Origin: Desulfoferula mesophila
GTDB lineage: Bacteria; Desulfobacterota; Desulfarculia; Desulfarculales; Desulfarculaceae
Direction: 5' to 3'
DNA length: 64,000 nt
NCBI RefSeq assembly: GCF_037076455.1
Contig: NZ_AP028679.1
Coordinates: 697,501 to 761,500 of the forward strand
In this document: positions 3,365-32,661 of the stretch, piece after piece
How positions within the stretch are numbered: the first letter of the stretch is position 1
Layout: the number at the start of each line of letters is the position of its first letter
Position numbers and translations under genes: made by a program
The notes under the pieces: model-generated
Database searches by the model: none
What the model saw: only the letters and a program-made list of their open reading frames with translations
Told to the model about the DNA's origin: nothing

Positions 3365-4780
<1,416 letters not shown>

Positions 4781-12732: not shown

Positions 12733-12794
12733 GGTAGGTAAACATCCGGAGGGCTTTGAACTTTTGCGTCTAAATTAGAGGAAAGGTGGAAAGT

Positions 12795-13793
12795 ATGCGT
12801 AAACCTAAGATCAAACTCGTCGGGATCGTCGCCGTCGCGTTATTGTGCCTGGCCCTGGGCGGACAGGCCATGGCGGCTGATTCCGGTCCCCAAAAGCTGT
12901 CCATGGCCACCTTCAAGAGCGGCAGCGGCTGGTACATCATGGCCCAGACCATGGCCAAGATCATGCTGGGCACTCTGCCCCAGGGTTCCACGGTGGACGT
13001 GCTGCCCTACAGCGGCGGCGTGGGCAACCCCATGCTGTTGCACAAGGGCAAGGCCAACATCGCCCTGGGCTTCCCGGTGGAAACCGGCCAGGCCATCAAG
13101 GGTGAAACACCCTACAAGGAAAAGGCACCCGAAATCCGCATGCTGGTGGGTAACCTGGACACCTATTGGTATCTGTTCTCCGTGCGGGGCAACGTGCCGA
13201 TCACCAGCTTCGAGGAACTCAAAACCAAGAAGTTCCCCCTGCGCCTGGTGCTTTTGCCCAAGGGCAGCAGCGGCGAGTGGGCCACCAAAACGGTGCTCAA
13301 GGCCTACGGCATCACCTATGAGGACATCGAGTCTTGGGGCGGCAAGGTCACCTTCGTCTCCTTCCCCACCGCGGTGGAGATGATGAAGGACGGCCAGGCC
13401 GACGCCTTTGCCCACGTGAGCACTCCGGGCCACCCCTCCTGGACCCAGCTTTCCACCCTGACCAAGATTCGCTTCCTGCCCATGGGCGCCAAGGTGGGCG
13501 CGCAGTTGGTGGGCAAGTACGGCTACCGCATGAGCACCCTGCCCAAGGGCGCCTTCCGGGGCGTGGAAAAGCCGGTGCAGGTGCTGGGTTTCGCCACTTT
13601 GCTCATGACCACCGACAAGATGCCCAACGACGTGGCCTATAAGATCACCAAGGCCATCTGCGAAAACCGGGCCGAATTGGCGACCACCTACAAGGGCGCC
13701 GCCGCTTTCCGTCCCCAGTTGGCCCCCGATGTGCCGCTGCCTCTGCACCCCGGTGCCGAGAAGTACTACAAGGAAGCGGGATACCTCAAGTAG
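12795..13793 (+). CDS. TAXI-type TRAP transporter solute-binding protein
   Basis: 332 residues. Signal peptide MRKPKIKLVGIVAVALLCLA with cleavage near QAMAA. The mature protein has the TAXI features: LSMATFKSGSGWYIMAQTMA at the N-terminus, the GGVGNPMLLHKGKANIALG ligand loop, and a C-terminal LPLHPGAEKYYKEAG. It captures an organic anion in the periplasm for the fused permease encoded next. ATG 12795 gives a standard signal peptide and sits 5 nt after AGGTGG; GTG 12786 is a possible alternative. A very stable hairpin follows the gene, fitting the usual excess of binding protein over permease. Confidence 0.88.
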   Translation: MRKPKIKLVGIVAVALLCLALGGQAMAADSGPQKLSMATFKSGSGWYIMAQTMAKIMLGTLPQGSTVDVLPYSGGVGNPMLLHKGKANIALGFPVETGQAIKGETPYKEKAPEIRMLVGNLDTYWYLFSVRGNVPITSFEELKTKKFPLRLVLLPKGSSGEWATKTVLKAYGITYEDIESWGGKVTFVSFPTAVEMMKDGQADAFAHVSTPGHPSWTQLSTLTKIRFLPMGAKVGAQLVGKYGYRMSTLPKGAFRGVEKPVQVLGFATLLMTTDKMPNDVAYKITKAICENRAELATTYKGAAAFRPQLAPDVPLPLHPGAEKYYKEAGYLK

Positions 13794-13841: not shown

Positions 13842-13863
13842 CTTCAACCAAGGATTGCGCCGC

Positions 13864-15744
13864 ATGCGACTCACGGCAAAAACTTACCTGATTTCCCTGG
13901 TGGCCATCGCCTGGTCCGTCGTCCAACTCTACAACTCCATCACCTTTGATCTGGACATTCTCCAGCTGGAGTTCATGCACCTGTCCTTTGCCCTGATCCT
14001 GGCCTTTTTGCTCCGGCCCGGCCCGGCCTGGATCAACCAAAAAAACTGGTCGGATTATCTGCTGGCCCTGGCCTCCGCCGCGGTGGGCGTCTACATGATG
14101 GCCAGCTACACCCGCATCGCCGAGCGCATCCGCTTCGTCTCCGACGTGGAGATGGGCGACGTGCTGGTCTGCGTGGTGCTCATTTTCCTGGTCTTGGAGG
14201 CGGGGCGCCGGGTGATGGGCTGGGGTCTGTCCATCCTGGGCCTGGTGGCCATCGCCTACGCCTTTTTCGGCTACCTGCTGCCGGGGGCGCTGGGCCACAG
14301 CTCGGTGACCGGCGACAGCTTCACCGAGTTCATGGTGCTCACCCAGGAGGGTATCTTCGGCATACCGCTCAGGGTCTCCACCATCTACGTGTTTTTGTTC
14401 GTGCTCTTCGGGGCGTTCCTCAAATACGGCCGCCTGGGCGAGTTCTACAACGACCTGGCGGTTTCCGTGGCCGGCGGCCTGAAGGGCGGGCCGGGCAAGG
14501 TGGCGGTGATCAGCTCCAGCCTTTTGGGCACCATCAGCGGCAGCGCGGTGGCCAACGTCTCCACCTCCGGCACCTTCACCATCCCCATGATGAAGCGGGC
14601 CGGCTATCAGCCCGCCTCGGCCGCGGCCATCGAGGCCCTGGCCTCCACGGGCAGCCAGATCGTGCCGCCCATCATGGGCGCGGCGGCCTTCATCATGGCC
14701 GAGCTGACCCAGATTCCCTACTGGTCCATCGCCGTGGCCGCCATCATCCCCTCCATCCTGTACTACATCGTGGTCTACGCGGTGGTGCACTTCGAGGCGG
14801 TCAAGCACGACCTGCAAACGGCGGAGGAAGACCGCAAGGGTTTTTGGGTCATGGCCCTGTCCAAGAGCTACATGTTCATCCCGGTGGTGGTGATCGTCTA
14901 CTATCTTTCCGCCGGCTACTCCATCACCCTGGCGGCCACCATGGCCATCCTTAGCGCGGTGGTGGTCTCGGCCATTCCCCTGATCGTCACCCGCCAGTGG
15001 AAAGAGTTCGGCCTGTTCGTCAAGGCGCTGGAAGACGGGGCCAAGGCCTGCGTGGCCGTGGCCATACCTTGCGCCATCGCGGGCATCATCGTGGGCGTGC
15101 TCACCCTGACCTCGCTGGGGCTCAAGTTCAGCGACCTGATCCTGGCTTTCGCCGGGGACAACGTGGTGTGGCTTTTGATCATCACCTCGCTGATCTGCAT
15201 GGTGCTGGGCATGGGCATGCCCACCAGCGCGGCCTACATCACCGTGGCCATCCTGGCCATTCCCGCCCTGATCAAGGGCGGGGTGCCGCCCATCACCGCC
15301 CATTTCTTCGGCTTCTTTTTCGCCAACCTGTCCATGATCACCCCCCCGGTGGCCCTGGCCGCCTATGCCGGGGCGGGCATCGCCGGGGCCAACAGCTCCC
15401 AGGTGGGCCTCAGGGCCTGCTGGATGGGCCTGACCATCTACGCCATCCCCTTCCTGCTGGCCACCTATCCCGGGCTGATGCTCATAGGCGATTGGTCCGA
15501 GATAATTTTGGACCTGGTGAAGGTGGCGTTCATCATCGTCAGTTTCTCCGCCGCGATAATGGGGGTGTTCAGCGCGCGCCTCAAGGGCTACCAGCGCGGG
15601 CTGTTCATGGCGGCGGGTGTGTTGTTGTGGGCCAGCCTGTCCTCGGTGCTGCTGAACCTGGCAGGTTTCGCGGTGCTGGCGGCGGCCCTGTTCTGCGCTT
15701 ACAAATATCGCCCGGACCAGACGACGGCCATGGGCCGGGCCTGA
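13864..15744 (+). CDS. TRAP transporter fused 4TM/12TM permease (DctQM-type)
   Basis: 626 residues, nearly all membrane helices. The N-terminal ~120 residues form the small DctQ-like part. The large DctM-like part carries the family glycine/serine-rich segments, for example GTISGSAVANVSTSGTFTIPMMK (near 225-247), GSQIVPPIMGAAAFIMAE, and LGMGMPTSAAYITVAILAIP near 455. It moves the substrate delivered by the upstream TAXI protein using an ion gradient. ATG 13864 has AAGGA about 9 nt upstream; TTG 13855 is less likely. Confidence 0.9.
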   Translation: MRLTAKTYLISLVAIAWSVVQLYNSITFDLDILQLEFMHLSFALILAFLLRPGPAWINQKNWSDYLLALASAAVGVYMMASYTRIAERIRFVSDVEMGDVLVCVVLIFLVLEAGRRVMGWGLSILGLVAIAYAFFGYLLPGALGHSSVTGDSFTEFMVLTQEGIFGIPLRVSTIYVFLFVLFGAFLKYGRLGEFYNDLAVSVAGGLKGGPGKVAVISSSLLGTISGSAVANVSTSGTFTIPMMKRAGYQPASAAAIEALASTGSQIVPPIMGAAAFIMAELTQIPYWSIAVAAIIPSILYYIVVYAVVHFEAVKHDLQTAEEDRKGFWVMALSKSYMFIPVVVIVYYLSAGYSITLAATMAILSAVVVSAIPLIVTRQWKEFGLFVKALEDGAKACVAVAIPCAIAGIIVGVLTLTSLGLKFSDLILAFAGDNVVWLLIITSLICMVLGMGMPTSAAYITVAILAIPALIKGGVPPITAHFFGFFFANLSMITPPVALAAYAGAGIAGANSSQVGLRACWMGLTIYAIPFLLATYPGLMLIGDWSEIILDLVKVAFIIVSFSAAIMGVFSARLKGYQRGLFMAAGVLLWASLSSVLLNLAGFAVLAAALFCAYKYRPDQTTAMGRA

Positions 15745-15846: not shown

Positions 15847-17289
15847 ATGGCTAAAAATTTGCGGACCTACTTGGAGCAACTGGAGAAGGAAAGGCCGGAG
15901 GTGATCCTCAGGGTGCAAAAGCCCATGAAGGTCGCCTACGAGATCTCGGCCTTGCAGCGCAAGCTGGACGCTTTGCGCAAATATCCGGTCATCATCGTGG
16001 AACACCCCATCTTGGACAACGGAGAGGAAAGCGCCTTCCCGGTGGTCACCAACCTCACCGCCAGCCGCGAGCTGTGCGCCGAGGCACTGGGCCTGGATCA
16101 CCGCCGCATCGCCATGGACTACGCCGCCAAGGTGTCCCACCGCATCGACCCGGTGAAGGTGTCCAAGGACGAGGCTCCGGTCAAGGAAGTGATCGAGACC
16201 GGTGAGGACATCAACCTGCTCAAGTTCCCCATCCTCACCCACAACTACATGGACCCCGGCCCCTACATCGGCACCGGCTTCGTGTGCAACTACGACCCCG
16301 AGACCAAGGTGGACAACTGCTCCTTGCAGCGCATCTGGGTAAAAAGCCCCCGGCGCACCGGCTACTGGCCGGCGGTGACCAGCCACAGCATGCAGAACAT
16401 CTGGAAGTGGTGGGGCGCGGGCAAGGACATGCCGGTGGCCATCTGGATCGGCCATCACCCGGCGGGCATCTCCGGAGCCCAATCGCGCCTGGCCTATCCC
16501 GAGAGCCACTACCCCTCCATGGGCGGGGTCATGGGCGAGGCGGTCAAGCTGGTGCCCAGCGAGCTGTTCGGCGAGGACATCATGGTCCCGGCCGACGCCG
16601 AGATGGTCATCGAGGGCTACGTGCCCCGCGAAGTGTTCGAGGCCGAGGGGCCCTTCGGCGAATACCCCGGCTACATCGGCCCCCAGCGCCCCAGCCCGGT
16701 CATCGACGTCAAGTGCGTCACCTACCGCAAGGACGCCATCTACCACGGCCTGGGCGTGGGCCTGGCCGACCACCTGGTGCTTCTGGGCAACTTCCCCCTG
16801 GAGGCGCGCATCTACAACGTGGTCAAGAGCGTGGTGCCCGAGGTGATGAACGTGTTCGTGCCCATCTCCGGGCGGCGCAACCACGTCTACGTGCAGGTCA
16901 AGAAGACCCGGCCCGGCATCGGCAAGGAGGTCATCATGGCCACCCTGCCCTGCGACAGCCGCTTGAAGCACGTGTTCGTCATCGACGAGGACATGGACCT
17001 GTTCAATGAGAGCGACGTGATGTGGTCCATCGCCTACCGCAGCCAGTGGGACCGCGACCTGGTGGTGGTGGAGGGCGCGGCGGTGTTCCCGCTGGACCCC
17101 AGCGTCCCCTCGCCGGGCAACATCGGCACCCGGGGCGGCATCGACGCCACCATGCCGCCGCCCATCGGCAACGGGCTGCCCCGCTTCTATCAGATGGTCA
17201 ACAAGACTCCCGACGAGGTGGCGGCGGCCATCCAGCTCGAGGACTTCGTGGACCCCGGCCTGTTGGGCAACTACCCCTCCTCCTCCTAG
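15847..17289 (+). CDS. UbiD-family prenylated-FMN-dependent decarboxylase (copy 1)
   Basis: 480 residues, normal for UbiD. Family signatures in order: LPL/KFP-type ILTHNYMDPGPYIGTGFV, NCSLQRIWVKSP with the cofactor-binding arginine, IGHHPA, ESHYPSMGGVMGEAV, and EGPFGEYPGYIGP with the conserved glutamates of the E-R-E catalytic set. It should (de)carboxylate an unsaturated or aromatic acid using prenylated FMN made by a UbiX; a UbiX gene lies 1.6 kb downstream. AGAGGT precedes ATG 15847. The next gene encodes a tiny zinc ribbon, an arrangement repeated at the other UbiD gene in this window. Confidence 0.92.
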   Translation: MAKNLRTYLEQLEKERPEVILRVQKPMKVAYEISALQRKLDALRKYPVIIVEHPILDNGEESAFPVVTNLTASRELCAEALGLDHRRIAMDYAAKVSHRIDPVKVSKDEAPVKEVIETGEDINLLKFPILTHNYMDPGPYIGTGFVCNYDPETKVDNCSLQRIWVKSPRRTGYWPAVTSHSMQNIWKWWGAGKDMPVAIWIGHHPAGISGAQSRLAYPESHYPSMGGVMGEAVKLVPSELFGEDIMVPADAEMVIEGYVPREVFEAEGPFGEYPGYIGPQRPSPVIDVKCVTYRKDAIYHGLGVGLADHLVLLGNFPLEARIYNVVKSVVPEVMNVFVPISGRRNHVYVQVKKTRPGIGKEVIMATLPCDSRLKHVFVIDEDMDLFNESDVMWSIAYRSQWDRDLVVVEGAAVFPLDPSVPSPGNIGTRGGIDATMPPPIGNGLPRFYQMVNKTPDEVAAAIQLEDFVDPGLLGNYPSSS

Positions 17290-17313
17290 GCGGGGCTATA
17301 AAGGATAGGCGTC

Positions 17314-17496
17314 ATGATTACCATTGAGAAAGTCGGAAACCCCAAGGACGTCTGGGTCACCTGCCCGGGCTGCAAGCAGTTGTATTACATCGACCGGCTC
17401 TTCTACGAGCCGCAGTACGACAAAATCCCCCTGCACTGCCCCTTCTGCCATCTGGAGTTCGCCAAGGAGGACTCCCCCATGACCTGGGGCGAATAG
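17314..17496 (+). CDS. Small zinc-ribbon protein paired with UbiD (D-subunit-like, copy 1)
   Basis: 60 residues. Two CPxC knuckles, CPGC at about 18-21 and CPFC at about 42-45, should bind one zinc. The segment between and after them (YYIDRLFYE, LHCPFC, FAKEDSP) is shared with the 75-residue protein at 30327-30554, also beside a UbiD gene. Small CxxC proteins are known as subunit D of non-oxidative hydroxyarylic acid decarboxylases (BsdD, VdcD), where B is UbiX-like and C is UbiD-like, so it is read as an accessory subunit of the UbiD encoded 24 nt upstream. The role is inferred from context; direct sequence similarity to BsdD beyond the two knuckles was not established. Confidence 0.75.
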   Translation: MITIEKVGNPKDVWVTCPGCKQLYYIDRLFYEPQYDKIPLHCPFCHLEFAKEDSPMTWGE

Positions 17497-18889: not shown

Positions 18890-19456
18890 ATGGCGGATAA
18901 CGCCAAACCGATCATCGTGGGAATCACCGGAGCCAGCGGAGTCATCTATGGGGTGCGCCTGCTGGAGGTGCTCAAACAGCTGGGATACGAGACCCATCTC
19001 ATCATGAGCGACGCCGCCCGGCTGAACCTGACCATAGAGACCAAGTACCACCCCAAGCAGGTGGAGGGCCTGGCCGACAAGGTGTACCCGGTGGGCGACA
19101 TGGCCGCCGCGGTTTCCAGCGGCTCCTTTCTCACCGAGGGCATGGTCATCGCGCCCTGCACCATCAAGACGCTCTCGGCGGTGGCCAATTCCTTCAACTA
19201 CAACCTCATCGTGCGCGCCGCCGACGTGTGCCTCAAGGAGCGCCGCCGGGTGGTGCTCATGGTGCGCGAGACCCCGCTGCACGCCGGGCACCTTCGGCTC
19301 ATGACCCAGGCGGTGGAGATCGGGGCCACCATCCTGCCGCCCATCCCGGCCTATTATCACGGGCCCCAGAGCATTGCCGACCTCATCGACCAGAGCGTGG
19401 GCAAGGTGCTGGACTGTTTCGGCATACAACATCAACTGTTCCGGCGCTGGTCCTAG
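18890..19456 (+). CDS. ubiX: UbiX-family flavin prenyltransferase
   Basis: 188 residues, full length. The N-terminal GITGASGVIYGVRLLE is the FMN/dimethylallyl-phosphate binding signature; VIAPCTIKTLSAVANSFNYN and VLMVRETPLHAGHLRLM follow as in UbiX/Pad1. It makes prenylated FMN for UbiD enzymes. It is the only UbiX in the window and could serve both UbiD proteins. AGGAGG lies 5-10 nt before ATG 18890. Confidence 0.93.
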   Translation: MADNAKPIIVGITGASGVIYGVRLLEVLKQLGYETHLIMSDAARLNLTIETKYHPKQVEGLADKVYPVGDMAAAVSSGSFLTEGMVIAPCTIKTLSAVANSFNYNLIVRAADVCLKERRRVVLMVRETPLHAGHLRLMTQAVEIGATILPPIPAYYHGPQSIADLIDQSVGKVLDCFGIQHQLFRRWS

Positions 19457-20851: not shown

Positions 20852-22522
20852 TCAGTCTCGGTGGCGAATGACCGCCCCCTGGTCGGCCGAGGAGGCCAGG
20901 CGGGCGTAGACGGCCAGGTAGCCGCTGGTGAATTTGCGCGGCGGGGCCTGCCAGGCGGCCTTGCGCCGGGCCAGTTCCTCGTCGCTCACCGCCAGGTGCA
21001 GGCGGCCCGCCGGGATGTCGATCGTAATCTGGTCGCCGTCGGCCACCAGGGCCAAGGGACCGCCCTCGGCCGCCTCTGGTGAGACGTGGCCCACGAAGCA
21101 GCCGTTGTTGGTGCCCGAGAAACGCCCGTCGGTGACCACCGCCGTGCTCAGGGCCAGGCCCTTGCCGTAGAGCAGCTTCATGGCCTTGTACATCTCGCGC
21201 ATGCCCGGACCGCCCTTGGGCCCCTCGTAGCGGATCACCACCACCTCGCCCGGCCCCACCTGGTCGGCCAGGATGGCCTGGTTGGCTTCCTCCTCGCAGT
21301 CGAAGCAGCGGGCCTTGCCCTTAAACACGCGCATCTCGGGCTTGATGGCCGCCGGCTTGGTGATGCCGGTGCGGGGGGCCAGGTTGCCTCGGAGCACCGC
21401 CAGCCCGCCACCCACCTCCCAGGGGTCGTCCAGGCCGCGCAGCATGGGGTGCTCCTGAATCTGGACGCTTGCCAGGTTTTGGGCCAGGGTTTGCCCGGTG
21501 ACCGTGAGGGTGTTGCCGTCCAGCAGGGGCAGCAGGCGCTTGAGCACCGCCGGCACCCCGCCCGCCGCGTGGAAGTCGCCCAGGTTTTGGGGAGCGGCGG
21601 GGTTCATCTTGGCCAGGTGGGGAGTCTCCTTGGCCAGGCGCTGGATATCGGCCATGCTCAGTTCGAACCCGGCCTCGTAGGCCACCGCCGGCAGGTGCAA
21701 CACCGTGTTGGTGGAGCCGCCGATGGCGCTGCTCAGCCGCATGGCGTTGGCCAGGGAGGCGGGGGTGATGATTTGGCGGGCGGTGAGATCCTCCTCCACC
21801 ATGGCCACGATGCGCCGCCCCGCTTCCTGGGCCGCGCGCAAACGGTCGGCGAAATAGGCGGGGATGGTGGCGCTGCCCGGCAGGCTCAGGCCCAGGCCTT
21901 CGGCCAGGCAGCACATGGTGTTGGCGGTGCCCAAAAAGGAGCAGGAGCCGCAGGTGGGGGCCACCGCGTCTTCCAGGCGGTACAGCTCCTCCTCGCTGAT
22001 CTTGCCCCGGCTGAGCATGCCCATGGCCTCCACCAGGGAAGTGGTGTCGCTGGGCCGCCCGTCGAATTCGCAGCCCCCGGCCATGGGCCCGCCCACCACC
22101 AGGATGGCCGGCAGGTCCAGGCGGGCGGCGGCCATGAGCATGCCGGGCACGATCTTGTCGCAGGAGCCCAACAGCACCACCGCGTCCAGGCGGTGGGCCT
22201 GAATCATGATCTCGATGTCGTTGGCGATGAGGTCGCGGCTGGGCAGGATGTAGTGCATGCCGTCGTGGCCGTTAGCCAGACCGTCGCAGGCGGCGATGAC
22301 CCCGAACTCCACCGGGGTGCCCCCGGCCTGGCGGATGCCTTGCTGCACGTACTCCGACACCCGGCGCAGGTTGTAGTGGCCGGGCACCACCCGGTTCCAG
22401 GAGTTGGCTATGCCGATCAGGGGCCGTTCCAGGTCGTAGTCGCTGTAGCCCATGGACTTGTACAGGGCGCGCATCTTGGACCATTCGGGCCGGGCCAGGA
22501 TTTTTTGGCTGCGTGGTTTCAT
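20852..22522 (-). CDS. ilvD: Dihydroxy-acid dehydratase (IlvD/Edd family)
   Basis: 556 residues, the usual IlvD length. Fe-S and Mg-binding signatures are present: CDGLANGHDGMHYILPSRDL, GSCDKIVPGMLMAAARL and APTCGSCSFLGTANTM; the C-terminal VTDGRFSG and the typical ending SADQGAV are intact. IlvD makes 2-oxoacids from 2,3-dihydroxy acids in valine/isoleucine synthesis. A catabolic paralogue acting on a sugar acid is possible, because it sits 22 nt behind an AbfD-like gene and not with other ilv genes. Start ATG 22522. Confidence 0.85.
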   Translation of the reverse strand: MKPRSQKILARPEWSKMRALYKSMGYSDYDLERPLIGIANSWNRVVPGHYNLRRVSEYVQQGIRQAGGTPVEFGVIAACDGLANGHDGMHYILPSRDLIANDIEIMIQAHRLDAVVLLGSCDKIVPGMLMAAARLDLPAILVVGGPMAGGCEFDGRPSDTTSLVEAMGMLSRGKISEEELYRLEDAVAPTCGSCSFLGTANTMCCLAEGLGLSLPGSATIPAYFADRLRAAQEAGRRIVAMVEEDLTARQIITPASLANAMRLSSAIGGSTNTVLHLPAVAYEAGFELSMADIQRLAKETPHLAKMNPAAPQNLGDFHAAGGVPAVLKRLLPLLDGNTLTVTGQTLAQNLASVQIQEHPMLRGLDDPWEVGGGLAVLRGNLAPRTGITKPAAIKPEMRVFKGKARCFDCEEEANQAILADQVGPGEVVVIRYEGPKGGPGMREMYKAMKLLYGKGLALSTAVVTDGRFSGTNNGCFVGHVSPEAAEGGPLALVADGDQITIDIPAGRLHLAVSDEELARRKAAWQAPPRKFTSGYLAVYARLASSADQGAVIRHRD

Positions 22523-22544: not shown

Positions 22545-23990
22545 CTAGACCAGGCCCAGCATGTTTTTTACCCGGGCCACCTTTTGCTCGAGGTCGGCCT
22601 GGCGGCCGATCATGATGCGCTGGGCGGTGGGCGGCCCGGCCCCGTGCATGGACTCGATCAAGTAGCCCACTGCCCCGGCCCCGGCCACCAGGTTCTCGAT
22701 GAGCCGCAGCACCTTCATGCGGTCCACCACCGGGAAGTCGGGGTTGGCGGCCAGGTACTTCTTGATGTAGGGCCCGGCCACCGGGTCGTTGAGGTCGGCC
22801 GCCGAGGGCATGGTGCCCAACAGGCCCCCGGCCACGTCGGTGGCCAGGCGGGCCAGCTCGTAGGGGAAGCGGGTCACGTTGAGCTTGCACACGTTGGCCA
22901 ACAGCAGGTTGACCAGGTAGTTGCCCGCCGCCGTGGCCTCGCCGGTGGCCGAGCAGGCGATGCCGCAGGAGAAGATGGTCTCGTTGAGGTGGATCATCTC
23001 CACGATCTTGTCCTTGATGTGGCTGGCCCCGGCCACCCCGTTCATCTGGGCGATGAGCGCGGTGGCCCCGATGAGGGCGTCGCCCACCCCCACCTTGCAG
23101 CCGCCGTAACTCTGGCGGTGGTAGGAGGCGAAGCGCTCCACCAGGGTGCCGGAGAAATCCACCTCGCCGTCCAGGAACACCCGCTCGTCGGGCACGAACA
23201 CGTCCTCAAAGACGGTCATCACCTCCTGGCCGCCAAAGGGATTGCCCACGTCCAGGGGGTCGGCCTCCAGCTTGCGGGTGTCGCTGGCCTGGCGCCCGTA
23301 GATGTAGCGCACGCCCTCGGCATTGGTGGGCACCGCGCAGCACACCGCCCAGGCCTCCTCGCCCGGCCGCATGGTCAGGGTGGGCATCACCAAGATCTCG
23401 TGGGAGTTGAGCATGCCGGTCTGGTGCAGCTTGGCCCCGGAAATGACCACGCCCCCCGGGCGGCGCTCCTTGACCCGAAGGAACAGGTCCGGGTCCACCT
23501 GGTCCTTGGGCCGCTTGCCCCGGTCGCCCTTGGGGTCGGTCATGGCCCCGTCCACCACCAGGTCGTTCTGCTGAATCCAGCTCCAGTAATCCTTGAAGCG
23601 CTGGTGATAGTCGGTCCCGTGCTTTTGGTCGCACTCAAAGGTGGTGCTGTAGATGGCGTTGGCCGCGTCCAGGCCCACGCAGCGCTGAAAACAGCAGGCG
23701 GTGCCCGCGCCACAGTAGCGCTGCATCTTCACCTTGTTCACCAGGTCCTCGGCGCTTTGGTGCAGGTGGGTGAAGCGGTTGATCTCGGCCTTGCACAGGG
23801 AGGACTCCACGCAAAAAAGGTCGCGGGTGGCCGGGTCGTGGGCCGCGTCAAAGGTGAAGGCCACCGCCTTTTGCGAAGGCTGGACCAGGCCGTGTTCGCC
23901 CAGGTCGCCGGATTTGCGGCCCAGCATGTGGGCTTCCAGCTTAAGGTCCGCCACTGACTCCAGATATTGTTTGCCGGTTTTAAGGGCCAC
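22545..23990 (-). CDS. 4-hydroxybutyryl-CoA dehydratase-type Fe-S/FAD enzyme (AbfD-like)
   Basis: 481 residues, full length for the 4-hydroxyphenylacetate 3-hydroxylase/AbfD superfamily. The four [4Fe-4S] ligands of AbfD (C99, C103, H292, C299 in Clostridium) have clear counterparts at C100, C104, H291 and C298, with identical internal spacing, so this is the dehydratase branch and not the flavin hydroxylase branch. It should dehydrate 4-hydroxybutyryl-CoA to crotonyl-CoA or isomerise vinylacetyl-CoA. Start GTG 23990 follows AGGAGG. It is the first gene of a two-gene unit with ilvD. Crotonyl-CoA would lead to the 3-hydroxyacyl-CoA dehydrogenase reaction encoded at 2391. Confidence 0.9.
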   Translation of the reverse strand: MALKTGKQYLESVADLKLEAHMLGRKSGDLGEHGLVQPSQKAVAFTFDAAHDPATRDLFCVESSLCKAEINRFTHLHQSAEDLVNKVKMQRYCGAGTACCFQRCVGLDAANAIYSTTFECDQKHGTDYHQRFKDYWSWIQQNDLVVDGAMTDPKGDRGKRPKDQVDPDLFLRVKERRPGGVVISGAKLHQTGMLNSHEILVMPTLTMRPGEEAWAVCCAVPTNAEGVRYIYGRQASDTRKLEADPLDVGNPFGGQEVMTVFEDVFVPDERVFLDGEVDFSGTLVERFASYHRQSYGGCKVGVGDALIGATALIAQMNGVAGASHIKDKIVEMIHLNETIFSCGIACSATGEATAAGNYLVNLLLANVCKLNVTRFPYELARLATDVAGGLLGTMPSAADLNDPVAGPYIKKYLAANPDFPVVDRMKVLRLIENLVAGAGAVGYLIESMHGAGPPTAQRIMIGRQADLEQKVARVKNMLGLV

Positions 23991-26161: not shown

Positions 26162-28072
26162 TTAGTCGGGGATAACGGTTAAGGGAGATTTTTTTCTCCG
26201 GTAAAGCTGCCACAGCACCAACAGGGCCAGCAGGGCCAGCCCGGCCAAGCTGTAGGCTTTTACCGGCATGATCAACAAAATTCCGATGACAAAGGCCAGG
26301 CCGCGTTCCGGGGTGTTGAGCTTGCCCAATAGATAGCCAACCCCGGCCACCGCGAAGCAGGCCGCGCCCAATATGGCGGTGCCCATGTCCATGGCCATCT
26401 TCCCCAGAGGCCCTTCCAAGAGCAGGCTCTGGTCGTAGGCGAACATGAAGGGCACCACGAAGGCCACGATGCCTATGCGGGTGGCGGCCCAGCCCGTCTT
26501 CCAGCCGTCGGCCCCGGCTATGGCCGCGGCGGTGAAGGCGGCGGCGGCCACCGGTGGGGAGATGAGCGACAGGCAGGAGAAGTAGAAGGCGAACAAGTGG
26601 GCCACGTGGGCGGGCAGGCCCAGGGCCATCAGGGCGGGGATCACCGTGGCCACCTGCACGATGTAGGCCGGGGTGGTGGGCATGCCCGCCCCCAGGATCA
26701 GGGCGATGACCATGGCCATCATCAGGCCCAAGAGCAGGTGCCCGCCGGCCAGGTCCACGAAAGCGGTGCCCAGGCGGTTGCCCAGGCCGGTGAGGTCCAC
26801 GCTGCCCACGATGATGCCCGCGGCGGCGGTGGAGATGGTAACGATGAGCATGCCCTTGCAGCCCGCTTCCAGGGCGTTCAGGATGCCCGCCAGGTTCAGG
26901 CGGGTGGTCTTGCGCAACTGGCAGATGACCAGGGCCGAGACCACGCCCACCCCGCCGGCCATGCTGGGGCTGTAGCCGGCCACCAGCATGTAGATGAGCA
27001 GCGCCAGGGGGATGAGCATGTGGCCGTAGTCGCGCATGGTCTGGCCGGGGGTGACGTCCACCTTCAGGCCCGGCAGGCGGTTCTTGCGGGCCTCCAGGTC
27101 CACGGTGATGAACACGCTGATGTAGTAGAGCACCGCCGGGAACAGGGCGTAGTAGATGATGGTGGAGTAGGGGATGCCCGAGAAGGCGCTCATCACGAAG
27201 GCGGCCGCGCCCATCACCGGGGGCATGATCTGCCCGCCGGTGGAGGCCACCGCCTCCACCGCCCCGGCGAACTCGGGGCGGTAGCCCGCGTTTTTCATCA
27301 TGGGGATGGTCACCACCCCGGTGGTGGCCACGTTGGCCGCGCCGCTGCCGGTGATGGTGCCCATGAGCGAGCTGGCCACCACGGCCACCTTGGCCGGGCC
27401 GCCCACCATGTTGCCGGTGAGGGTGGTGGCCAGGTTGCTGAAGAGCATGGCCCCGCCGGTGTGCAGCAGCACCGCCCCGAAAATGACGAACAGGGCGATC
27501 TCCGTGGCCGACACCCCCAGGGGGATGCCGAAGATGCCCCCCAGGGACAGGTAGTTGAAATCAACCATGTCCTTGAAGGTGACCGCCGAGGTGTGGAAGG
27601 GACCCCAGAGGTAGGGCCCCAGCAGGGGGTAGATGAGAAAGGCCAGCACCACGAAGAACAGGCCCTTGTTGAACATGCGCCGGGTGGCCTCCAGCACGAT
27701 GAGCACCATGGCGATGCCCAGGGTCATCTCCCAGGGGGAAAGCTCGGTGATGAAGGGGAAGCGCTCCTCGGTGACCCAGTCGTAGTTGAGGGCCAGGTAG
27801 GCGGTGGCCGCCCCGGACACGAACAGGAACACCCAGTCCAGCCAGGAAGGCCGGGGCTTGCCCTTGGCCCGGATAAGGCCGGGGCGTACCAGAAACAGCA
27901 GGATCAACCCCAGGCCCAGGTGGATGGCCCGCTGGATGAGGGCGTCGAAGGCCCCGAACAGGGCGGTGTATATCTGGAACAGGGCCAGAACCGCCGCCAC
28001 CAGGGTGGCGCTTTTGGCCTGCCAGGACTTGGCCCTCCAATATTCGCGCCAGCTTTTGCGCTCCTCGCTCAC
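26162..28072 (-). CDS. TRAP transporter fused permease (DctQM-type, copy 2)
   Basis: 636 residues with many membrane helices. A DctQ-like N-terminal part (~1-190) is followed by the DctM-like domain with GTITGSGAANVATTGVVTIP, ASTGGQIMPPVMGAAAFVMS and LGAGMPTTPAYI. The GTG start at 28072 shares a GTGA overlap with the stop of the molybdenum hydroxylase gene, showing translational coupling; AAGGA lies about 11 nt upstream. It imports the ligand bound by the TAXI protein at 25173. Confidence 0.9.
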   Translation of the reverse strand: MSEERKSWREYWRAKSWQAKSATLVAAVLALFQIYTALFGAFDALIQRAIHLGLGLILLFLVRPGLIRAKGKPRPSWLDWVFLFVSGAATAYLALNYDWVTEERFPFITELSPWEMTLGIAMVLIVLEATRRMFNKGLFFVVLAFLIYPLLGPYLWGPFHTSAVTFKDMVDFNYLSLGGIFGIPLGVSATEIALFVIFGAVLLHTGGAMLFSNLATTLTGNMVGGPAKVAVVASSLMGTITGSGAANVATTGVVTIPMMKNAGYRPEFAGAVEAVASTGGQIMPPVMGAAAFVMSAFSGIPYSTIIYYALFPAVLYYISVFITVDLEARKNRLPGLKVDVTPGQTMRDYGHMLIPLALLIYMLVAGYSPSMAGGVGVVSALVICQLRKTTRLNLAGILNALEAGCKGMLIVTISTAAAGIIVGSVDLTGLGNRLGTAFVDLAGGHLLLGLMMAMVIALILGAGMPTTPAYIVQVATVIPALMALGLPAHVAHLFAFYFSCLSLISPPVAAAAFTAAAIAGADGWKTGWAATRIGIVAFVVPFMFAYDQSLLLEGPLGKMAMDMGTAILGAACFAVAGVGYLLGKLNTPERGLAFVIGILLIMPVKAYSLAGLALLALLVLWQLYRRKKSPLTVIPD

Positions 28073-30327
28073 GCGTTGTCCATCCTTTGCTGCCGCCGCT
28101 GGCGGTTCAAGATTTGCCACAGGGTCTCGCCGGCCACCGGGTTGCTGTAGGTGGGCTCGCCCAGGACGGCGGCCACCGCGTTGTGCACCGCCGGGGCGGT
28201 GGAAAGCAGGGCGGGCTCGGCCACCCCCTTGGCTCCGTAGGGGCCGGTGGGCTCGGGATCCTCCACCACCCGCACCACCACCTCCGGCGCGGGCCAGGCG
28301 TGGGGGAGCTTGTAGTCCAAAAAGTGGGGGTTGACGATGCGCCCTTGGTCCAGAAGGACCTGCTCGCTCACCGCGTAGCCCAGGCCCATCATGGCCGCGC
28401 CCTGAATCTGGGCGGCCAGGTTCACCGGGTGGATCACCTTGCCCACGTCATGGCAGGCCACCAGGCGCAAAACCTCCAGGCGGCCGGTGAGCTTTTCCAC
28501 CGCCACCTGGGCCGCGTGCACCGCGAAGGCGTAGGTGGCATAGGGCGCGCCCTGGCCGGTGACCGGGTCCAGCTTGCGGGTGGGCGGGTCGAAGGTGCCC
28601 TCCACCTCCAGGGGCTCGCTGAGCAGGCGCCGCGCCGCCTGGGCCAGCTCCCAGGCCCGGCCCTCCATCCACAACTGGCCGTCGCGCCAGCTGGCCTCGC
28701 CGGAGCCGTCGGCCCGCTGGGCCAGCTCCACCAGGCGCTGGCGCAGGGCCGCCCCGGCCCGCTGCACCGCGCTGCCCACCACGTAGGTGAGGCGGCTGGC
28801 GGTGGAGGGGCCGGAGTTGGGGCAGGTGGAGGTGTCGCCGGCGACCAGCTCCACCTGATCCGCGTCCAGGCCCAGCTCCTGGGCGGCGATCATCTTCATG
28901 GTGGTGGATGCGCCCTGGCCGCCGTCGCCGGTGCCCACCAGGAGGGTCACCTCGCCCTGGTCGGAAAGCACCAGGCGGGCCGCGCCGGGGTTGGGCAGGC
29001 CGGTGAGGCCGATGCCGTAGTAGGTGGCCCCCAGGCCCCAGGCGGTGAGCCAGTCGGGGTCGTTCTCGCGGGGATGGGGGGACAGCTGGGCTTGGGCCTG
29101 CTCCACCTGCTCCAGGCATTTGGTGATGCCCACCGAGGCGGTGAGCTCCTGGCCCGCGGCGGTGCTGTCGCCGGGCTCCAGGAAGTTGAGCCGCCTTATC
29201 TCGGCCGGGGTCTTGCCGCAGGCGGCGGCCACCAGGTCCATCTGGCATTCGTGGGCGATGGCCACCTGGGGCACCCCGAAGCCGCGCATGGCCCCGCACA
29301 CCGGGTTGTTGGTGTAGACCAGGCGGCCGTGCGACTCCACGTTGGGCACGTTGTAGGGGCCGGCGCAGTGCACCACCGCCCGGGTCAGGATGGAGGGGCC
29401 GTAGGAGGCGTAGCAGCCGGTGTCGGCCAATATCTCGGTTTTGACCGCCACCAGGCGGCCCTCCTTGGTGGCCCCGGTGGTCATGGTCACTACCATGGGG
29501 TGGCGCTTGGTGCTGGTCTGGAAGGACTCCTCGCGGCCATAGGTCATGCGCGCCGGGCGGCCAGTAAAGTAGGTGGCCATGGCGCAGAAGTATCCCGGCG
29601 AGAGCCCCTGCTTGTCCCCGAAGTAGCCGCCGATGGTGGCGCAGATGATGCGCAGGCGCTCGGGGGGCAGGGCCAGGATGCGGCTCAGCATACTCTGGTC
29701 CAGGTGGGCGTGCTTGGTGGGCAGCTTGATCACCAGGACCTCGCCCTCCCACCAGGCCAGGCCCGCCTCGGGCTCCAGATAGGCGTGCTCGATCATCTGG
29801 GTGCGGTAGGTGCGCTCGATGACGATGTCGCAACCGGCCAAGGCCGCCGCTCCCTCGCCCCTGAGCAGGCCGCGCTCGAACACCAGGTTGCTCTCGCCGT
29901 TGACCACCGGCGCGCCGGGGGCCAGCGATTCCTCCGGGGTGAACACGCCGGGCAGGAGCCGGTAGTCGGGCTTGACCAACCGGGCGGCGGCCTGGGCCTG
30001 CTCCAGGGTATCGGCGGCCACCAGGGCCAGGGGGTCGCCCACCCGGCGCACCTTGTCCACGCACAGGGCCGGTTCGTCCTTGAGGCGCGGGCCCAGCATC
30101 ACCTCGCCGGGCAGATCGGCGGCGGTCCATACCCCCACCACGCCGGGAGCGGCCTTGGCCGCGCCGACGTCCAGGCCTATCAACTCGGCGTGGGCCACCT
30201 TGCTGCGGGCCACGGCCAGGTGCAGGGCGCTGTCGGGCTGGTGGTCGCCGGCATAGAGAGCCTTGCCGGTTACCTTGTCCCAGGCGTCGAATTTGAGTAC
30301 CGGACGGCCGATGCTGTCCTCGGCCAT
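28069..30327 (-). CDS. Molybdenum hydroxylase large subunit (xanthine dehydrogenase / 4-hydroxybenzoyl-CoA reductase alpha family), orphan
   Basis: 752 residues, normal for the Mo-binding subunit. The N-terminal hammerhead domain (KFDAWDKVTGKALYAGD, ADLPGE) is followed by the molybdopterin domain with TIGGYFGDKQGLSPGYF in place of the usual GGFGGK, CGAMRGFGVPQ, GDGGQGASTTMKMIAAQE, and the catalytic glutamate in GAKGVAEPALL. The family hydroxylates or reductively dehydroxylates ring compounds. No FAD subunit or 2Fe-2S subunit gene is adjacent, which is unusual. It sits in a TGATG overlap with the zinc-ribbon gene upstream and a GTGA overlap with the permease downstream, so it is an integral member of the uptake/decarboxylation operon. 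Confidence 0.88.
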   Translation of the reverse strand: MAEDSIGRPVLKFDAWDKVTGKALYAGDHQPDSALHLAVARSKVAHAELIGLDVGAAKAAPGVVGVWTAADLPGEVMLGPRLKDEPALCVDKVRRVGDPLALVAADTLEQAQAAARLVKPDYRLLPGVFTPEESLAPGAPVVNGESNLVFERGLLRGEGAAALAGCDIVIERTYRTQMIEHAYLEPEAGLAWWEGEVLVIKLPTKHAHLDQSMLSRILALPPERLRIICATIGGYFGDKQGLSPGYFCAMATYFTGRPARMTYGREESFQTSTKRHPMVVTMTTGATKEGRLVAVKTEILADTGCYASYGPSILTRAVVHCAGPYNVPNVESHGRLVYTNNPVCGAMRGFGVPQVAIAHECQMDLVAAACGKTPAEIRRLNFLEPGDSTAAGQELTASVGITKCLEQVEQAQAQLSPHPRENDPDWLTAWGLGATYYGIGLTGLPNPGAARLVLSDQGEVTLLVGTGDGGQGASTTMKMIAAQELGLDADQVELVAGDTSTCPNSGPSTASRLTYVVGSAVQRAGAALRQRLVELAQRADGSGEASWRDGQLWMEGRAWELAQAARRLLSEPLEVEGTFDPPTRKLDPVTGQGAPYATYAFAVHAAQVAVEKLTGRLEVLRLVACHDVGKVIHPVNLAAQIQGAAMMGLGYAVSEQVLLDQGRIVNPHFLDYKLPHAWPAPEVVVRVVEDPEPTGPYGAKGVAEPALLSTAPAVHNAVAAVLGEPTYSNPVAGETLWQILNRQRRQQRMDNA

Positions 30328-30554
30328 CAGCTTTTCTCCCGGCCGGGGCGGTAGATGGTCTCGGGCTTCAGGCCGCCGGGCACCTTGGCCACCGCCGCCG
30401 AGTTGACGCTGCCGGAGATCACCAGGGGGCTGTCTTCCTTAAAGAAATACACGCCGCAGAAGGGGCAGTGCAGCTCCACGGGCAGGGAGTAGAGCAGCAT
30501 GTCCGCGTAGTATTCGCGGCCGCAGGAGGGGCAGGTAACGCTGAAGATGTCCAT
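30327..30554 (-). CDS. Small zinc-ribbon protein paired with UbiD (D-subunit-like, copy 2)
   Basis: 75 residues. CPSC at 8-11 and CPFC at 32-35 form a zinc ribbon. The core shares the order CPxC, YYxDxLxY, LHCPFC, F-x-KEDSP with the protein at 17314-17496; a 35-residue polar tail is extra. It starts 1 nt after the UbiD stop and overlaps the molybdenum hydroxylase start by one base. Placed as a candidate D subunit of a UbiD complex; the role is inferred from recurrence and position. Confidence 0.78.
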   Translation of the reverse strand: MDIFSVTCPSCGREYYADMLLYSLPVELHCPFCGVYFFKEDSPLVISGSVNSAAVAKVPGGLKPETIYRPGREKS

Positions 30555-30555
30555 C

Positions 30556-31944
30556 TCAACCCTCCAGGTAGTCGTCCAGGTTAAGGTTTTGCCGCAGCTG
30601 TTCGGGCACCTCTCCCCGGCGGGGGAAGGGGCGGTCCAGGGGCCGGGTGGCGTCGATGACCATGCCCGAGGTCTTGATCTCGTGGCGCAGGCTGGGGTCC
30701 AATACCTGGCCTTGCAGGTTTCTCAGGATGCTCAGGTCCTGGTCGGCCTGCACCCGGCTGGACAGGGCCCACATCACCTGGGCCAGATCCTCGGGGTCCA
30801 CGTCGTCGTCCACCACGATCACGTGCTTGATGAAGTTGCTGGCGCTGATGGCGGCCAGGGCGGCGCGCATGGGCTCGCCCTCGGTCTTCTTTTTCAGGCT
30901 GATGATCAGGTTGAAAGGCCCGCCCGAGCCCACCCAGCAGGTCTTGATCACGCCCGGCGCCGCCTGCTTGGCCCGCTGGTAGATGCTGGCCTCGATGGGC
31001 AGGTGGGCGTTGATGTGCTCGCTGTAGCAGGGGAAGATGTCGATGATGGTGGGGCGCTGGCGGCCGTACACCGCGCTGATCTCCACCACCCAGGAAAGGC
31101 GCTGGGGCCCGGCGTAGCCGGTGAACTCGCCGAAGGGCCCTTCAACGCAGCGCTTGCCCGCCAGGATGCGGCCTTCCAAGACCAGCTCCGCCTCGGAGGG
31201 CACCAGCAGCTCCTCGCCGAAGCTCAGCGAGGGGATCAGCCCCAGGGGTTCGCCCATGACCCCGCCGGCCACCGCGTATTCGTCGGCGTCCAGGGGGGTG
31301 AGCAGCGCTCCGGTGAGGTGGAAGGCCGGATGATGGCCCAGCACCACCGCGATGGGCAGGTCGCGCCCGGCGGCCTCGGCCTCGGCGAAGTAGGCCGACA
31401 GATGGCGGGGCGACATGTAGATGGCCAGGTGGGTGGGGTCCAGGTACTGCATGCGGTTCCAGGAGACGTTGTAGCGCCCCTGGGGGCTGCGGCTCACCAC
31501 GATGGGGGTGAAGTAGGGGCCGCCGTCCAGCTCGGTATGGCGGATCAGGGGCAGGCGGGTGAGGTCGATGTCCTCGCCCTGCCAAACCCAATGGCGCACC
31601 GGGGCCTCTGGCAGGGCCACCCGCACCGGCTCCAGGCTTTTGCCGGAAAGCTCCAGCATGCGCTCGATCAGGGGCATGCGCTGGCCGGTGTCCAGGCCCA
31701 GGGCCAGGGCGATCTTGCGGAAGGTGCCAAAGGTGTTGTTGAGGATGCGGCAATCGGTGGGGCGGCCCTCAAGGTCGCGCACCTGCTCGAAGAGCACCGC
31801 CGGGTAGCGCTTTTGGCTCTCCAGGGCGTCCACCACCGCGGCGCTTTCGAAGGCGGCGGGCTCCACCGGGCGGCGCACCGTTACCAGCTCCCCCGGAGCC
31901 TGGGCGGCCAGGGTCTCCAGCCAAGATGTCAGGTCCATTGCCAT
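30556..31944 (-). CDS. UbiD-family prenylated-FMN-dependent decarboxylase (copy 2)
   Basis: 462 residues. The UbiD series is present: LPLIRHTELDGGPYFTP, NVSWNRMQYLDP, LGHHPA, YAVAGGVMGEP, EGPFGEFTGYAGP and the C-terminal KTSGMVIDATRPLDRPFPRR. It is only moderately like the copy at 15847 (for example NVSWNRMQ against NCSLQRIW), so the two probably act on different acids. No UbiX is adjacent; the one at 18890 is the nearest. ATG 31944 with AGGAAG upstream. Second gene of the operon led by the GntR regulator. Confidence 0.92.
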   Translation of the reverse strand: MAMDLTSWLETLAAQAPGELVTVRRPVEPAAFESAAVVDALESQKRYPAVLFEQVRDLEGRPTDCRILNNTFGTFRKIALALGLDTGQRMPLIERMLELSGKSLEPVRVALPEAPVRHWVWQGEDIDLTRLPLIRHTELDGGPYFTPIVVSRSPQGRYNVSWNRMQYLDPTHLAIYMSPRHLSAYFAEAEAAGRDLPIAVVLGHHPAFHLTGALLTPLDADEYAVAGGVMGEPLGLIPSLSFGEELLVPSEAELVLEGRILAGKRCVEGPFGEFTGYAGPQRLSWVVEISAVYGRQRPTIIDIFPCYSEHINAHLPIEASIYQRAKQAAPGVIKTCWVGSGGPFNLIISLKKKTEGEPMRAALAAISASNFIKHVIVVDDDVDPEDLAQVMWALSSRVQADQDLSILRNLQGQVLDPSLRHEIKTSGMVIDATRPLDRPFPRRGEVPEQLRQNLNLDDYLEG

Positions 31945-31959
31945 GGGGATGATGCTTCC

Positions 31960-32661
31960 TTATTTCCAGTAGGTGGCCATCTGGGCCACGTGGCGGGCCA
32001 TGGTTTCTTGCGCCGAGTCCGGGTCGTGGCGGCGCACCGCTTCGAATATCTCGACGTGCCCGTCTATGCCCAGGGTGCGCAGCTCGGGAGGCAGGTGATG
32101 CCGGCGCACGTTGGTGTAGAGCAAGGGAACCAGGGCCCGCGAGATAAGGTTGAGCACCGTGTTGCCGCAGGCGTCGGCCAACACCAGGTGAAAGTCCAGG
32201 TCGCTGATGCTGCGGGGGCGATCCTCTTCCACCACCTGTTGATAGGTGGTTATGGTGTCTCCCAGCCTCCGGAGGTCTTCCTCGGAGGCCAGCCGGGCGG
32301 CCAGCGCGGCCACCTGGGGTTCGATGACCAGGCGGGCCTGGGTAAGGTCGGCGATGCTGGCCTTGCCCAGGCGCAGCATCAGGGTGAGAGCCTCGCCCAC
32401 CGGCTCGGGGCTGGGCTCGCACACGAACACCCCGCCTCCGGCCCCCCGGCGGCTGGTCAACAGGCCCATCTGCTGCAGGCTGATCATGGCCTCGCGCACC
32501 GGCACCTTGCTGACCCCCAACTGGCGGGCCAGTTCGCTCTCCGTGGGCAGGCGGTCGCCCACCTTCAGTTCCCCGGCCAGGATCAGGTTGGTGATCTGTT
32601 CCCTTACGCTGTCGGAAACCCGCCCATGCTTGACGCTTTCCAGAGATATTTTGCCGCTCAA
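31960..32661 (-). CDS. GntR-family regulator, FCD (FadR) subgroup
   Basis: 233 residues. Winged helix at about 12-80 (LPTESELARQLGVSKVPVREAMISL, the GntR signature) and an FCD domain with LDFHLVLADACGN and HxxIFEAVRRHD for the metal/ligand site. A perfect AACCTAAT/ATTAGGTT dyad lies 55 bp upstream of its start, a likely autoregulatory operator. It heads the UbiD/zinc ribbon/Mo hydroxylase/TRAP operon and most likely represses it until substrate arrives. Confidence 0.92.
   Translation of the reverse strand: MSGKISLESVKHGRVSDSVREQITNLILAGELKVGDRLPTESELARQLGVSKVPVREAMISLQQMGLLTSRRGAGGGVFVCEPSPEPVGEALTLMLRLGKASIADLTQARLVIEPQVAALAARLASEEDLRRLGDTITTYQQVVEEDRPRSISDLDFHLVLADACGNTVLNLISRALVPLLYTNVRRHHLPPELRTLGIDGHVEIFEAVRRHDPDSAQETMARHVAQMATYWK

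Follow-up and report, generated by a model that had tools for sequence, protein, structure and literature searches.

Within the 64,000 nucleotides of Desulfoferula mesophila DNA that were analysed (the window), two genes for UbiD-family (de)carboxylases are each followed by a gene for a very small protein with two cysteine knuckles, which raises the question of what so small a protein does for the enzyme encoded beside it. The first enzyme, UbiD1 (480 aa; 15847..17289, plus strand; Pfam PF01977/PF20695/PF20696), is followed after 24 nt by ribbon 1, a 60-aa CPxC-x21-CPFC protein with an N-terminal extension (17314..17496, plus strand). The second, UbiD2 (462 aa; 30556..31944, minus strand; all three UbiD domains of Pfam), is followed after 1 nt by ribbon 2, a 75-aa CPxC-x18-CPFC protein with a C-terminal tail (30327..30554, minus strand). 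The catalytic residues of UbiD1 are R162 and E267-GPFG-E272 (the ERE motif); alignment places their equivalents in UbiD2, where the motif is present as well. Both ribbons carry CPxC, YYxDxLxY, LHCPFC and F-x-KEDSP in that order. An earlier interpretation made from the letters alone (the sequence-only reading) had given the coordinates, lengths, gaps and motif order of both pairs exactly, and it was also right that the UbiDs are clearly diverged (31% identical) and yet the partner is kept, ribbons 1 and 2 being 51% identical across 43 residues (BLASTP E = 1e-13).

The neighbours of pair 1 include a TAXI/TRAP transporter, an MFS transporter, UbiX, RidA and a GntR regulator. The TRAP permease lies upstream of the pair (13855..15744, plus strand; Pfam PF06808), with a TAXI-type binding protein nearby (12786-13793; Pfam PF16868), and the UbiX flavin prenyltransferase (18890..19456, plus strand; NCBIfam TIGR00421 and NF004685, both above cut-off) is the likely source of prFMN for the window UbiDs. 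Pair 2 has a GntR/FCD regulator upstream (31960..32661, minus strand; Pfam PF00392 and PF07729), TAXI/TRAP genes and, directly downstream of ribbon 2, the large subunit of a molybdenum hydroxylase (28069..30327, minus strand; Pfam PF02738, PF20256, PF01315), the ATG of which overlaps the TGA of the ribbon gene (TGATG). No medium or small subunit of this hydroxylase was seen among the scanned genes around window 28069-30327. In distant genomes, molybdenum hydroxylase or TRAP homologues again adjoin ribbon-UbiD pairs, and it is plausible that a (hetero)aromatic acid is imported by TRAP and then decarboxylated. Between the two UbiD clusters, the window also holds genes for an IlvD-type dehydratase (20852-22522) and an HpaB-type flavin hydroxylase (22545-23990).

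Compared with their homologues, the ribbons have low dN/dS values (NG86; about 0.02-0.2 for ribbon 1 and 0.14-0.5 for ribbon 2), and thus both are real genes under purifying selection, which is stronger on ribbon 1. The four cysteines, as CPxC-x(18-21)-CPxC, are constant in all 33 members of the family that we collected, all of them proteins of less than 110 aa, and most members have a phenylalanine four residues past the last cysteine. The KEDSP stretch, which had been offered as the signature of the family, turned out to be local, being present literally in only 5 of the 33. Three layouts are found: an N-terminal extension in type 1 ribbons and the alphaproteobacterial forms, a C-terminal tail in type 2 ribbons and their kin, and minimal ribbons of about 48-52 aa with no tails. 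The AlphaFold2 model of ribbon 2 is zinc-ribbon-like over residues 1-40 (pLDDT about 90) and ends in a loose tail; its antiparallel strands (3-7, 14-18, 27-29 and 36-38) carry both knuckles, so that the small protein, as modelled, has the zinc-ribbon fold. Among the matches listed for this model by Foldseek and VIA-align there were only generic ribbons and no E under 0.001, the best structural matches being mostly ribbons and zinc fingers, all low-scoring. None of the curated Pfam or NCBIfam families takes the window ribbons above cut-off; the MJ0042-type/Zn_ribbon_4 models (TIGR02098, PF13717) are among the nearest generic ones and stay below theirs. A plasmid search with ribbon 1 gave one chance match inside a kinase and nothing else.

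To ask where such ribbons reside, a profile of the ribbon alone was run against 395 genomes of the phylum. It recovered 22 intact ribbons (at least 41 bits) and one remnant, in nine genomes. The background, presumably of the MJ0042/Zn_ribbon_4 type, scored at most 36 bits and consisted mostly of domains within longer unrelated proteins. A ubiD gene adjoins 21 of the 22 intact ribbon genes, a count to be read with the knowledge that the profile was built from ribbons beside ubiD and could therefore overlook members located elsewhere. Scanning named genomes with a DNA pattern gave at least 118 loci, a sample that favours genomes using TGC codons and ribbons with a histidine before the third cysteine; these loci were scored with a ribbon profile made before the scan. 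Among the matches listed, a gap separates 18 loci of at least 46.7 bits from the rest, at 36.4 bits or less, and ubiD lies beside the ribbon at 17 of the 18 (one truncated at the edge of its locus) and is missing at locus L069, while none of the look-alike loci listed below the gap has a ubiD. The two scans overlap in some organisms. Profile matches under about 37 bits were considered as members and rejected, as they are either parts of longer, unrelated proteins or small ribbons with no ubiD nearby. Both tabulations thus place the ribbon almost always beside ubiD, and the sequence-only reading of the small protein as a conserved UbiD partner is borne out.

The usual order is UbiD and then ribbon, often overlapping or a few nucleotides apart, like VdcC-VdcD, and where a genome has several pairs (two to six), each pair retains a ribbon of its own. 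Among the hosts are Deltaproteobacteria, marine Alphaproteobacteria, an Acidobacterium and a Thermincola (Bacillota); the earlier assignment of the family to anaerobes is not established, given the relatives in marine Alphaproteobacteria and an Acidobacterium. The genome from which the window comes also has a decayed third pair, with UbiD and ribbon remains side by side: about the first 68 UbiD residues run into the remains of a ribbon (locus L214, around 3450-3850; C1:2888449-2888850 of that genome), as if a deletion had taken the middle of the pair. The single ribbon of the profile scan that has no neighbouring ubiD is on contig 69 of a genome designated G198 (locus L211, 1087-1359). It is near-identical to a paired ribbon on contig 154 of the same genome and has as its neighbours genes similar to those for the medium and small molybdenum hydroxylase subunits; since two UbiD paralogues in G198 lack a ribbon of their own, it may serve in trans.

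Viewed from the side of the enzyme, the association is confined to one part of the UbiD family. In a first tree of 76 UbiDs, the ribbon-linked ones fell almost all in one branch. Because this sample was biased towards ribbons, we gathered the UbiD inventories of the window genome and three relatives with large UbiD sets, 121 genes in all. The smallest split containing both window UbiDs in the resulting 168-row tree (a quick search, with a support of only 82 for the deep split) comprises 40 rows, of which 32 have a ribbon. For the four inventoried genomes, a ribbon is present at 13 of 21 UbiD genes inside the branch and at 1 of 100 outside it (Fisher p = 2.7e-11, a value that is optimistic in that related genes are treated as independent). 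In the sole case outside the branch, the ribbon precedes two tandem ubiD genes, and the second of these is itself a branch member. No ribbon adjoins the other eight UbiDs of the branch, one of them reaching the end of its contig, so the partner may be dispensable there or supplied from elsewhere. As both window UbiDs are in one ribbon-rich branch, their pairs look like old paralogous pairs and not like separate recruitments; of the "two independent pairs" described earlier, the two pairs stand and the independence does not. Two genomes of the same phylum, G035 and G198 (3.7 and 4.5 Mb; loci L239-L325), have 56 and 61 UbiD-domain matches, an unusual expansion of decarboxylases, and their ribbon sequences are shared with groundwater MAGs.

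Ribbon and UbiD have also diverged together. Their pairwise distances correlate with r = 0.82 over 33 pairs, where the best of 5000 permutations reached 0.29, and with r = 0.47 over 17 distant representatives, a value as high as which occurred in 0 of 5000 permutations, as expected for co-inherited partners. The UbiD columns specific to the branch cluster at UbiD1 positions 234-250, just before the Glu-Glu loop, and 156-161, just before the catalytic arginine, and so flank the ERE residues. On alignment grounds this suggests that they sit where a VdcD-like ribbon would touch, and common descent by itself would also be expected to yield such columns.

The closest precedent for a partner of this kind is the D subunit of the hydroxyarylic acid decarboxylases, which the sequence-only reading had invoked as a protein of uncertain role. 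That description is outdated: VdcD, a four-cysteine (CxxC/CxxC) zinc ribbon, binds the VdcC hexamer 6:6 and is strictly required for its activity, VdcC alone showing little or none; excess D outperforms sub-stoichiometric D, the contact face of VdcD supports the loops bearing the catalytic ERE motif, and deletion of its proline-rich tail costs under 10% of the yield (PMC8379154). VdcD, BsdD and ShdD (NF041205; PDB 7ae4 chain a) resemble our ribbons in being CxxC...CxxC proteins of about 70 aa encoded right behind a UbiD homologue, and the VdcD spacing, CPxC-x21-CxxC, is close to that of the window ribbons. Recognition as VdcD nevertheless failed. Neither window ribbon matched NF041205 at its cut-off of 30 bits (the BsdD control scored 108.8 bits), no member of the family matched it at E 0.001, and hhalign, with single or profile inputs, aligned only 7-9 columns around the CPxC knuckle with a probability of 3-7%, a stretch too short to speak for or against homology. 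VdcD was absent among the matches listed for the ribbon 2 model, which has no bearing on kinship. On the enzyme side, the window UbiDs score 234 and 261 bits with the VdcC model NF041204, below its cut-off of 650, and in both the 76- and the 168-row trees VdcC is placed apart from the ribbon branch, in a well-supported branch of its own. G198 carries both systems, with about 2.5 kb between a UbiD-ribbon pair and a true VdcC-VdcD pair. The VdcC residues that are salt-bridged to VdcD (E31, R133, D173) are not conserved in the ribbon branch, so a ribbon contact would differ in detail. With only about 35 alignable residues, the family would seem, by sequence, to be either separately recruited or highly diverged from VdcD. 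The analogy with BsdD/VdcD is the best available, and it is as an analogy that the earlier proposal of a D-subunit family may be kept.

We consider it probable that the small protein is a dedicated structural and allosteric zinc-ribbon subunit of one branch of the UbiD decarboxylases. What is observed is that the genes are adjacent, that the ribbon is restricted to one UbiD branch and co-diverges with its enzyme, that the four cysteines are invariant and that selection is purifying; to this come the VdcCD precedent, the size, knuckles, gene position and type of partner that the two systems share, and the branch-specific columns. What we infer is the metal, the complex and the activation: the four cysteines would bind one zinc, and the ribbon would dock on its own UbiD near the loops that bear the catalytic Arg-Glu-Glu triad, holding these ERE loops in their active arrangement, working on UbiD as VdcD does on VdcC. 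If the ribbon keeps the loops in this way, UbiD alone should be inactive or weak. The N-terminal tail of type 1 and the C-terminal tail of type 2 may provide secondary contacts, since VdcD can lose its tail with little effect on activity. A model of UbiD1 and ribbon 1 read through as a single chain, with both stops set to glycine, had a pTM of 0.77 and a pLDDT of 68-78 for the ribbon and holds no docking information. Several findings weigh against the proposal: eight UbiDs of the branch stand without a ribbon next to them, two ribbons lack a ubiD neighbour, the VdcC residues bridged to VdcD are not kept in the branch, and HmfF, the nearest enzyme of solved structure, has no small subunit in its PDB listing.

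The alternative that survives best, unlikely as we find it, is that the ribbon aids prFMN loading or oxidative maturation and stays outside the working enzyme. Small UbiD-linked proteins of such a kind do exist, as LpdD binds reduced prFMN (a prFMNH2 chaperone) and helps to activate UbiD, while PhdC is a prFMN maturase that matures the radical form; like the ribbon, both are accessory proteins tied to UbiD decarboxylases, and a UbiX gene lies near pair 1. A general helper, however, should serve many UbiDs, whereas the ribbon is tied to one branch, co-diverges with it and is held as one copy per pair in genomes with several pairs. In addition, LpdD is a Pba3/4-like dimer and PhdC an HpaC-like flavin reductase, folds unrelated to the zinc ribbon, and neither is a zinc ribbon in its published description.

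Two CPxC knuckles would suit iron as well as zinc, and the gene behind the ribbon in pair 2, as in several relatives, encodes a molybdenum hydroxylase, so one might imagine a rubredoxin-like protein coupling UbiD to a neighbouring redox enzyme. We regard this as improbable, because many ribbon loci have no molybdenum hydroxylase in the stretch examined, UbiD decarboxylation needs no net redox, and the ribbon sequence is nearest to generic zinc ribbons, not to rubredoxin. Nucleic acids and proteins are common ligands of zinc ribbons, and the protein could in principle be a DNA- or protein-binding regulator of its operon; this reading is just as improbable, given that a GntR/FCD regulator is already beside UbiD at several loci and that a branch-specific co-divergence with the enzyme is not what one would expect of a regulator. 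The notion of a LysW-like carrier, with the substrate attached to the C-terminal residue of the ribbon while enzymes act on it, draws on a superposition of the ribbon 2 model on LysW (35 residues, 1.3-1.4 A, Z 2.6-2.8) and on the C-terminus of ribbon 1, TWGE, which we take to be reminiscent of the LysW end, and it is the least credible of all, as the family does not conserve the C-terminal glutamate at which LysW carries its substrate (type 1 ribbons end in E, N, Q or A, and other members quite differently), many unrelated ribbons reach an equal or higher Z, itself low, and no LysX-kind ligase was seen among the annotated neighbours.

A zinc-ribbon subunit of a UbiD, as we propose here, is of a kind already known from VdcD. 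As far as our searches reach, three things are new: the ribbon family, which we did not find described in the literature; its confinement to another UbiD branch; and the fact that the curated libraries apparently lack it. A bolder reading, to which we would give a little less than an even chance, is that zinc-ribbon activation of UbiD has at least two origins, one being VdcD with VdcC and the other an undescribed family with a separate UbiD branch acting on putative (hetero)aromatic acids, so that a whole annotated branch would seem to be inactive when expressed without a small gene (about 50-75 codons) missed by the curated libraries. If so, UbiD enzymes would have come repeatedly to the solution of recruiting a zinc ribbon beside the catalytic triad. 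Active preparations of some UbiD decarboxylases are hard to obtain, and many of their small neighbours have been stated to be of unknown role (PMC8379154, PMC10865409); for one UbiD branch, a recognisable and previously unnamed partner is now available, which, if the proposal is true, would aid in finding enzymes that (de)carboxylate furan, pyrrole or pyridine acids. The nearest solved structures for both window UbiDs are those of HmfF, the furan-2,5-dicarboxylate decarboxylase (PDB 6h6v), whose PDB listing has no small subunit, and then VdcC (7ae4).

Two loci in G035 are also of note. On contig 75 (locus L029, 656-2125), the EGPFGE motif of a ribbon-linked UbiD reads NGPWVDF, without its glutamates, and the ribbon is nevertheless kept; judging from these residues, this UbiD is possibly inactive or a non-catalytic subunit. 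On contig 182 (locus L251, near 597), a UbiD from outside the branch has a different small ribbon (YRCVRCGYILYVDKGGKAPGYCPNC...) about 15 nt behind it, which may be another zinc protein associated with UbiD.
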